Positions 41,164-43,239 of a stretch of DNA of 51,782 nt are shown one piece after another. This stretch comes from Deltaproteobacteria bacterium (GTDB taxonomy: Bacteria; SZUA-79; Acidulodesulfobacterales; Acidulodesulfobacteraceae). The number at the start of each line of letters is the position of its first letter. Position 1 is the stretch's first letter. The position numbers were made by a program, and so were the translations under genes. Where the stretch lies: contig JAMDCP010000005.1 in NCBI GenBank assembly GCA_023489335.1, forward strand, positions 1 through 51,782, read 5' to 3'. The notes under the pieces are model-generated. The model made no database searches. It saw nothing but the letters and a program-made list of their open reading frames with translations, and had not been told where the DNA came from.

Positions 41164-43239
41164 ATGATGGACGACTCGATGAAAGAAATAGTCAACGATT
41201 TTGTTCAAGAAGCGCTGGAACTCCTTGAAAGCCTTAATGAAAACTTTGTCGAACTTGAGAAAGATCCAGGGAACAAAGACCTGTTGAATACTATTTTCAG
41301 GGCAGCGCATACGATAAAGGGTTCCGCTGGTTTTTTGGGTTTTCAAAGCATTGTCGAGCTGGCGCATAGCGCGGAAAATATTTTAAATAAACTCAGGCAG
41401 GGCGAAATCAAACTTATCCCCGATATGATGGATTACTTGCTTAAGGCCATAGACATATTAAAGACTATGATAATATCCGTATCGGAAACAGGAATGGAAG
41501 GGCTTTCACCTGTAGATAACACGGAACTTATCAAAAGGCTTGACGGTCTGGCAGAGGGAATAACCCTGCCCAGCGAAGAAAAGTTAAAACAGCCGGAGGC
41601 CGGTGAGACGCAAGTCCGGCAGAGCTTGCCTCAAGCGGCGGTTGAAAGCGGTAAAGCAGGTATGCAAAAAGAAAAGGCGGCAGGCGAAATTACCAATGAA
41701 GAAAACCATAAAGAAAATCATGCTAAAACGGTTCAAAGAAAGGTAAGGAACCTTGGCGATATCCTTCTGGAAGACAACCTTATTTCCAAAGAGGAACTGG
41801 AGCAGATTTATAAAGAGAAAGAAGAAGAAACGAAACAACCTGAAACCGCAGGCTCCCCTCCCCTTGCGGGGGAGGTTAGGGGAGGGGTAGAAGAAACGAA
41901 ACAGCCTGAAACCGAAGGGCAAAAACCGGAACGGAATAGGCAGGATGCGCCGATAAGGGAAGTCCCTAACATTAAGCAAACGGAGGCGGCCTTACCTGGT
42001 CCAAAATCGCCTGCCGCCAGAATACCCGAGGTTAAAGAGACGACGATAAGGGTTGACATTGATAGGCTTGATAATGTTATGAATCTCGTCGGCGAACTTG
42101 TCCTTGCAAGAAACAGGTTGTTTAATATTTCTTCCAAATTAGAGTTGAAATATGCGGGCGACGATCTTTCCTCTGCGTTGGCGCAGGTTGTATCCAATTT
42201 AAATCTTGTTACTACCGACCTTCAGCTGGCGGTAATGAAGACAAGGATGCAGCCGGTTAAAAAGGTGTTTAGCAAATTCCCCAGAATGGTAAGAGACCTT
42301 TCAAGGGAACTTGGCAAAGAGATTGAACTTCAAATATCCGGCGAAGAGACGGAGTTAGATAAGTCGGTTATCGAAGAGATAGGAGATCCGCTTGTCCATT
42401 TAATAAGAAATAGCGTTGACCATGGGATAGAAACAAAAGAGGCGAGAAAAAGATTAGGAAAACCTGAAACGGGAACTATTAAATTAAGCGCCGAACACGA
42501 GGGAAATTATATCGTTATAACCGTTTCGGACGATGGAAAAGGAATGGACCCGGACATCTTAAAAAAGAAGGCCGTGGAAAAAGGGGTGATAGATGAAAAA
42601 ACGGCTTTTGGCCTTTCCGATAAGGATGCTTTAAGCTTGATTTTCACGCCGGGGTTTAGCACCAAGGAGAAAGCGACCGAAATTTCAGGAAGAGGGGTCG
42701 GGATGGATGTCGTTAAGACAAATATACAGAAAATAAACGGTATTATAGATATAGAATCTCAAATCGGGCATGGTTCGAAGATAGTATTAAAACTTCCGCT
42801 GACCGTTGCCATAATTCAAACCCTTATTGTCGGGGCGGGAGAAGATATTTTTGCCATTCCTCTTAATTCCGTCGTTGAAACCTTAAGAATATCCGAGTCG
42901 TCTATTCAAACAATTGATAAACATGAGGTTATAAATTTAAGAAAATCGGTTTTATCCCTGTTAAGATTAGGAGAAGAATTTGGCATAAAAGAATCAAGCA
43001 TCCTTGACTCCAATGCCTCGTTAAAAAAAGAAATTTACATAGTCGTCGTTGCATTGGCCGAAAAAAAGATTGGCATAGTGGTTGATAATCTGTACGGACA
43101 GGAAGAGGTTGTGATTAAATCTCTGGGGGATTATCAATTAGGATATAAAGGCATATCGGGCGCAACAATCACCGGCGACGGAAAGGTTGTCCTCATCATA
43201 GATGTAGCCTCTATGATAGAATCTGTCGCAATAAGATAA
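41164..43239 (+). CDS. cheA: Chemotaxis histidine kinase CheA
   Basis: 691 residues. The HPt domain has the phosphorylated His near residue 49 (NTIFRAAHTIKGSAGFLGF). A long linker (about 125-285) contains a small module, NLGDILLEDNLISKEELEQIY. The dimerisation helices begin IRVDIDRLDNVMNLVGELVLARNRL. The ATPase has HLIRNSVDHGIE, VSDDGKGMD, FTPGFSTKEK and SGRGVGMDVV. The CheW-like tail runs from LPLTVAIIQTLIVGAGEDIFAIPL. A palindromic insert lies in the linker (see 41824-41918). GGAGGA 8 nt before the ATG fixes the start; the TTG at 41146 is rejected. No separate CheY-binding P2 domain is obvious. Confidence 0.96.
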   Translation: MMDDSMKEIVNDFVQEALELLESLNENFVELEKDPGNKDLLNTIFRAAHTIKGSAGFLGFQSIVELAHSAENILNKLRQGEIKLIPDMMDYLLKAIDILKTMIISVSETGMEGLSPVDNTELIKRLDGLAEGITLPSEEKLKQPEAGETQVRQSLPQAAVESGKAGMQKEKAAGEITNEENHKENHAKTVQRKVRNLGDILLEDNLISKEELEQIYKEKEEETKQPETAGSPPLAGEVRGGVEETKQPETEGQKPERNRQDAPIREVPNIKQTEAALPGPKSPAARIPEVKETTIRVDIDRLDNVMNLVGELVLARNRLFNISSKLELKYAGDDLSSALAQVVSNLNLVTTDLQLAVMKTRMQPVKKVFSKFPRMVRDLSRELGKEIELQISGEETELDKSVIEEIGDPLVHLIRNSVDHGIETKEARKRLGKPETGTIKLSAEHEGNYIVITVSDDGKGMDPDILKKKAVEKGVIDEKTAFGLSDKDALSLIFTPGFSTKEKATEISGRGVGMDVVKTNIQKINGIIDIESQIGHGSKIVLKLPLTVAIIQTLIVGAGEDIFAIPLNSVVETLRISESSIQTIDKHEVINLRKSVLSLLRLGEEFGIKESSILDSNASLKKEIYIVVVALAEKKIGIVVDNLYGQEEVVIKSLGDYQLGYKGISGATITGDGKVVLIIDVASMIESVAIR
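41824..41918. repeat. Palindromic element with flanking duplication, in frame in cheA
   Basis: Two copies of a 29-nt unit (41824-41852 and 41890-41918, starting GAAGAAACGAAACA and ending AGG, with two mismatches) lie 66 nt apart, exactly 22 codons. Between them CCCCTCCCC (41855-41863) and GGGGAGGGG (41879-41887) form a perfect 9-bp inverted repeat around a 15-nt loop. The DNA is far more GC-rich than its surroundings. It is translated as SPPLAGEVRGGVEETK. The sequence resembles palindromes dispersed between genes in many bacteria. Confidence 0.85.

Follow-up and report, generated by a model that had tools for sequence, protein, structure and literature searches.

Short palindromic repeats are found in many bacterial genomes, and to our knowledge only the GTAG class has a known or proposed enzyme, the REP-associated tyrosine transposases (RAYTs). 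Repetitive extragenic palindromes (REPs) with GTAG or CGTC tags have been described, including intragenic cases, and those of the CGTC class, among them the Rickettsia conorii palindromic elements (RPEs) whose sequences end in a CGTC tag, 'apparently lack a dedicated transposase' (PMC3733652). Here we analyze a window of 51,782 nucleotides, the whole of the stretch examined (contig JAMDCP010000005.1, positions 1 to 51,782), in which the chemotaxis gene cheA contains a 36-nt palindromic element similar to palindromes that bracket genes of DUF559 (PF04480), a nuclease family that has received little study, in other bacteria.

The element shares features with each of these systems and differs from each. 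Like the palindromic elements of Rickettsia and Wolbachia it occurs both intergenically and in frame inside unrelated protein genes, here cheA and an lptA-like gene, with empty alleles in relatives; the resemblance, first proposed in an earlier note on this DNA, is one of behavior, and the element is 36 nt long with arms of G and C only, in another phylum. It does not extend to the R. conorii tag, as there is no CGTC within 41845–41895, whereas CGTC REPs carry it beside an 8–9 bp stem (PMC3733652). Those REPs are also small palindromes present in several phyla and partly intragenic, and it is the missing tag that sets the cheA element apart. GTAG REPs and their RAYTs (REPtrons) offer a parallel to the DUF559 loci, in that palindromes stand on either side of a single-gene enzyme and also occur alone at many other places, but the bracketed DUF559 enzyme is a PD-(D/E)XK Vsr-like endonuclease rather than an HUH tyrosine transposase, and the GTAG tag is absent. 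Vsr-like homing endonucleases of the I-Bth0305I type (PDB 3r3p), which the DUF559 profile matches, are likewise selfish nuclease genes present where relatives have none; the DUF559 units differ in having no intron or intein, and in having palindromic brackets and dispersed solo palindromes.

An in-frame palindromic insertion in cheA

The cheA coding region (41173–43236, forward strand, as are the other features within this gene; 688 aa read from 41173) is recognized by its open reading frame (ORF) and by Pfam matches to Hpt (residues 5–96), H-kinase_dim (290–357), HATPase_c (405–544) and CheW (549–684). Within it lies the C-rich/G-rich element CTCCCCTCCCCTTGCGGGGGAGGTTAGGGGAGGGGT (41853–41888), which is translated in frame as SPPLAGEVRGG and whose palindrome core is CCCCTCCCCTTGCGGGGGAGGTTAGGGGAGGGG (41855–41887), composed of a C-rich arm CCCCTCCCC (41855–41863) and a G-rich strand (41868–41887) whose two arms, GGGGGAGG and GGGGAGGGG, have TTA between them. 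The element is enclosed by two direct repeats, at 41823–41852 (EETKQPETAG) and 41889–41918 (EETKQPETEG), identical at 28 of 30 positions and spaced exactly 66 nt apart, so that insert and duplicated flank together add 22 codons while the reading frame stays open. This arrangement agrees with the earlier note, except that the repeats are 30 nt long, not 29. The insert occupies approximately residues 227–249 and, since Hpt ends at 96 and H-kinase_dim begins at 290, falls in the variable linker between the Hpt and dimerization domains; the earlier note had likewise placed it in a linker. Its linker position and the open frame suggest that its effect on CheA function is probably neutral. The palindrome pattern occurs once in the window and in none of 100 dinucleotide-preserving shuffles; the stability of the corresponding RNA hairpin is ordinary for its composition (z −1.5), and no Rfam match near the gathering score was found either at the cheA element or at the DUF559 loci described below.

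The genome to which the window belongs (G000; the window is its contig C5) comprises 1.80 Mb in 21 contigs, with 37.5% GC content and 92% completeness, and was compared with relatives from a phylum represented by 30 genomes, all of one family; G001 is its closest relative, and G002 and G003 are of the same genus. In the cheA alignment G001, which is 90% identical to G000 in this gene at the DNA level, reads KEKEEEIKQPETGTFEQKQERN at the insertion site where G000 reads KEKEEETKQPETAGSPPLAGEVRGGVEETKQPETEGQKPERN. Like G001, G002 and all other family genomes in the alignment lack the insert, and the 30-nt flank sequence that G000 carries twice is present once in the relatives. From these alignments the segment is identified as an insertion specific to the G000 lineage, and the flanks as a duplication of a sequence that relatives carry once. 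The 93% identity of the flank copies supports an insertion younger than the split between G000 and G001, in keeping with the earlier suggestion that it may be recent.

Dispersed copies of the palindrome

Seven copies are present in G000: those in cheA and the lptA-like gene, and five that are intergenic. A search with the 33-mer core allowing up to three mismatches added a single copy in G000 to that in cheA and had no match in 385 other genomes. The lptA-like gene (214 aa) carries its copy in the same orientation and frame as cheA, encoding SPTLAGGVRGG in place of SPPLAGEVRGG, and the insert is missing from G001 and G002, with a net length difference of 45 nt. An exact 9-mer repeat at a 66-nt offset had suggested a 30-nt target duplication here too, which we rejected; the offset is coincidental, because the insert-free G002 has both motifs 21 nt apart (21 + 45 = 66). 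The five intergenic copies are more diverged, with 7–9 mismatches, and the reversed pattern gives none; they lie mostly between co-oriented genes, 5–30 nt from adjacent ORFs, and the copy on contig C8 is matched by copies at the corresponding position in G001 and G003. The earlier note had proposed a dispersed palindrome that entered a gene, to be checked by counting copies in the genome and by looking for sister alleles without the segment; the six additional copies, one of them in a gene, and the empty cheA alleles bear this out, and neither of the contrary outcomes it named, the same segment in all related cheA genes or a genome with no other copy, was observed.

When copies from the genus and family are taken together, the element is oriented as its neighboring genes in about 9 of 10 independent cases, which is the fair count, as the raw 12 of 13 takes in one convergent and three orthologous cases. 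Three intergenic copies (C1:98996, C8:247884 and C18:23563) end, a few nucleotides ahead of a start codon, in GGGGAGGG(TG) or a near variant. Such start-proximal copies could act as a Shine-Dalgarno sequence, or could sequester one by alternative pairing.

Neither genome nor viral contigs contained an exact 23- or 27-mer match; the core varies too much for such scans, and a generalized pattern was needed. Palindromes from unrelated bacteria follow a common plan, CCCCTCCC-loop-GGGAGGGG-TTAGGGG-A-GGG, and the class can be described as a pyrimidine (Y)-rich arm, a short loop, a purine (R)-rich arm and a TTAGGGG-R-GGG tail. A loop-tolerant form of this pattern matches 16 of 242 genomes from across the domain, with up to 14 copies each, while the reversed control matches one other genome. 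Related palindromes are also present on plasmids of Deinococcus, Azospirillum, Rhizobium, Sphingomonas and Capnocytophaga, and in alphaproteobacterial contigs.

A second palindromic element of G000, TTCCCCTTTTTTAAAAGGGGTGTCAGTCCGCC..GGCGGACTGACGGGGTATTT, bears a CGTC-type tag and is abundant, with 41 copies in a strict search, located on contigs C1, C2, C8, C11, C20 and others (for example C1:112468–112521). It carries CGTC in the form AAATACCCCGTCAGTCCGCC..., and similar CCCCGTCAGCC... sequences are found within DUF559 loci from the phylum of G000. One CGTC-type copy, at C12:19911–19970, lies within a 1345-aa ORF on the same strand, and this may be a third palindrome-containing gene.

Palindromes bracketing DUF559 genes

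Several palindrome copies were found beside genes of the DUF559 family, an unexpected link that the earlier note did not make. Thirty DUF559 loci, chosen by Pfam family and blind to palindromes, were scanned within 150 nt of the gene for Y/R-rich hairpins (arm of at least 8, one mismatch, loop 3–9). Hairpins were present on both sides of the gene at 20 loci and on at least one side at 26, and counts per 150-nt distance bin fall away from the gene as 56, 13, 6, 3, 3 and 4. Two-sided bracketing was found in 2 of 111 shifted windows within the same loci (one side, 14/111), in none of 300 random G000 windows (one side, 4/300), at none of 19 cheA or 17 lptA genes, and at none of 30 PIN-domain genes (one side, 2/30; Fisher p 1.4e-8 for DUF559 against PIN); most of the PIN loci belong to the family of the window itself, making the shifted windows the better-matched control. 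The class of palindromes thus brackets DUF559 genes, as a statistical association. Aligned directly, the cheA 36-mer resembles DUF559 flanks more closely than shifted windows (p 1e-10) or PIN flanks (p 5e-9), as with the 3' bracket of Deinococcus proteolyticus, CCCCTCCCCCCTTGCGGGGGAGGCTGGGAGGGG, and it combines a Y/R palindrome and a T(T/A)(A/G)GGG tail with this beyond-chance likeness to the brackets.

Bracketing is seen in Deinococcota, Alphaproteobacteria and a cyanobacterium, and the bracketing palindromes are mostly inverted copies around the gene. In D. proteolyticus the DUF559 gene lies between ...CCACCCCCCTCCCGGCCTCCCCCGCAAGGGGGGAGG and CCCCTCCCCCCTTGCGGGGGAGGCTGGGAGGGGGGTGG..., and inverted similarity continues outward; brackets that are inverted copies of one another, outer sequence included, are present there and in D. 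psychrotolerans and Sinorhizobium meliloti. Further examples of bracketing are provided by S. meliloti, Azospirillum lipoferum and Sphingomonas parapaucimobilis, in the last between sufB and sufC, and in Pseudanabaena C-rich/G-rich hairpins lie near the gene. A Neisseria gonorrhoeae locus (L280) has Y/R palindromes in a tandem arrangement of 281-nt period downstream of a DUF559-like gene. Profile comparison of DUF559 gives matches to PDB 3hrl (1.7e-36), to 3r3p, a 'mobile intron protein' (9e-5), and weakly to Vsr itself (1cw0, 0.06), and a Caulobacter DUF559 protein has been described as Vsr-like (PMC12907096). No link between DUF559 and palindromic repeats was found in the literature searched, which leaves out most subscription journals, so that a prior description is possible.

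DUF559 units vary in presence between relatives and in copy number. At the hpaB junction of Deinococcus hpa operons the unit is present in D. proteolyticus, decayed in D. wulumuqiensis, and absent from D. radiodurans, D. ficus and D. deserti; Deinococcus strain NW-56 has one at another junction. Genome G144 contains the bracketed unit in at least 10 full or partial copies together with many solo palindromes, 102 matches in all, and the S. meliloti bracket recurs as solo copies of ~45 nt in more than 100 plasmid records. The units and solo palindromes of G144 (L209, L245–L274) have an additional conserved end, GGTAGTGTCAAAAA, ~55 nt outside the palindrome, possibly representing a second mobile system. 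An apparently clean empty site in G000 for the DUF559 unit of G016, G033 and G041 was not used, the region being rearranged.

Palindrome-plus-flank units of ~66 nt do get duplicated, since DUF559 loci of the same family hold tandem arrays of a palindrome with ~40 nt of flank (67 nt in 3.9 copies in G016; 66 nt in 3.6 copies in G033) and G000 has a 67-nt palindrome-plus-flank pair at C1:112395; cheA is formally the smallest such case. The arrays beside DUF559 genes at loci L213 (1189–1447) and L216 (1205–1440) have a period of 65–67 nt, near 66 despite differing palindrome lengths.

Origin of the cheA insertion

Our preferred reading, to which we assign a probability of about 0.6, is that a solo, non-autonomous copy of a DUF559-associated mobile palindromic repeat inserted into the cheA linker. 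Comparison with relatives shows that the insertion postdates the split from the nearest relative sampled, that it duplicated 30 nt of its target, and that it added 22 codons in a disordered region where they are tolerated. The bracketed DUF559 gene would be the autonomous form, whose nuclease may recognize, nick or break such hairpins or the target DNA, and repair of the break would then copy the palindrome, alone or with the DUF559 gene, into it. A duplication at cheA that is absent at lptA could reflect either a widely staggered break with fill-in, or template switching at the level of the repeats.

Several observations weigh against this reading. No cognate DUF559 gene (PF04480) was found in G000 (92% complete) or in G001 or G003; the gene is present in G002 and three family members. 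The G144 copies have added GGTAGTGTC ends, and another transposase may therefore move them there. Tails at the brackets point inward in 27 cases and outward in 21, so that the bracket has no uniform terminal structure and tail orientation was rejected as a defining terminal feature. The target duplication that the earlier note had taken from cheA stands there as a 30-nt duplication but not as a regular feature, since no long duplication is seen at lptA, compared with G002, or at the five intergenic copies; the element accordingly differs from miniature inverted-repeat transposable elements (MITEs), with their terminal inverted repeats and fixed-length target duplications at several copies. Finally, that cutting or nicking by DUF559 drives insertion is an inference.

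Part of this evidence would also suit DUF559 genes that are passengers or target-seekers, inserting beside existing palindromes that another enzyme or replication errors have spread: the three palindrome-bearing genomes of the genus in which DUF559 was not found, the great excess of palindromes over DUF559 genes, and the mixed tails all point this way. We nonetheless consider it distinctly unlikely, given that most DUF559 loci are bracketed on both sides, often by inverted copies that include outer sequence, and that the units occupy operon junctions at which both gene and palindrome are missing from relatives. Replication slippage or serial template switching, in which the polymerase, without any dedicated enzyme, copied a palindrome from another place and resumed 30 nt upstream, would account for a long duplication at cheA only and for its 66-nt period, matching the tandem expansion evident in the 65–67-nt arrays at DUF559 loci and the 67-nt pair in G000. 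The in-gene copies, two independent cases with matching boundaries, and the unrelated flanks of the dispersed copies argue for a defined moving unit; slippage or template switching is somewhat unlikely as the origin of the cheA structure.

An ordinary RAYT-mobilized REP element is improbable. G000 has one intact Y1 transposase gene (C16:9818–10180) and one fragment, which might favor it, but the intact gene adjoins a TnpB-like ORF, as in IS605-type elements, and a GTAG tag in REP position is lacking from the cheA element, whose 3' junction (GGGGTAG) does contain the letters GTAG, but in an orientation other than that of REPs and at this copy alone. Off-target integration by the CRISPR Cas1-Cas2 integrase was suggested by lengths of 30 and 36 nt that fit a repeat-spacer-repeat geometry; G000 has no array of at least three repeats at a 55–84-nt period, for which reason a CRISPR repeat-spacer unit was rejected, and the insert boundaries are those of the dispersed repeat, making such an origin extremely improbable.

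Beyond cheA, we tentatively raise the possibility, at somewhat less than even odds, that DUF559 proteins are the missing enzymes that mobilize palindromic repeats of a very large cross-phylum class, with tag-less Y/R palindromes and perhaps CGTC REPs among them. Such repeats would spread through the repair of breaks triggered by the nuclease, and would now and then add in-frame segments to proteins. The strong, cross-phylum bracketing of DUF559 genes offers a concrete candidate enzyme open to biochemical testing, and the inserts in cheA and lptA are direct examples of how these repeats extend conserved proteins by in-frame peptide segments.
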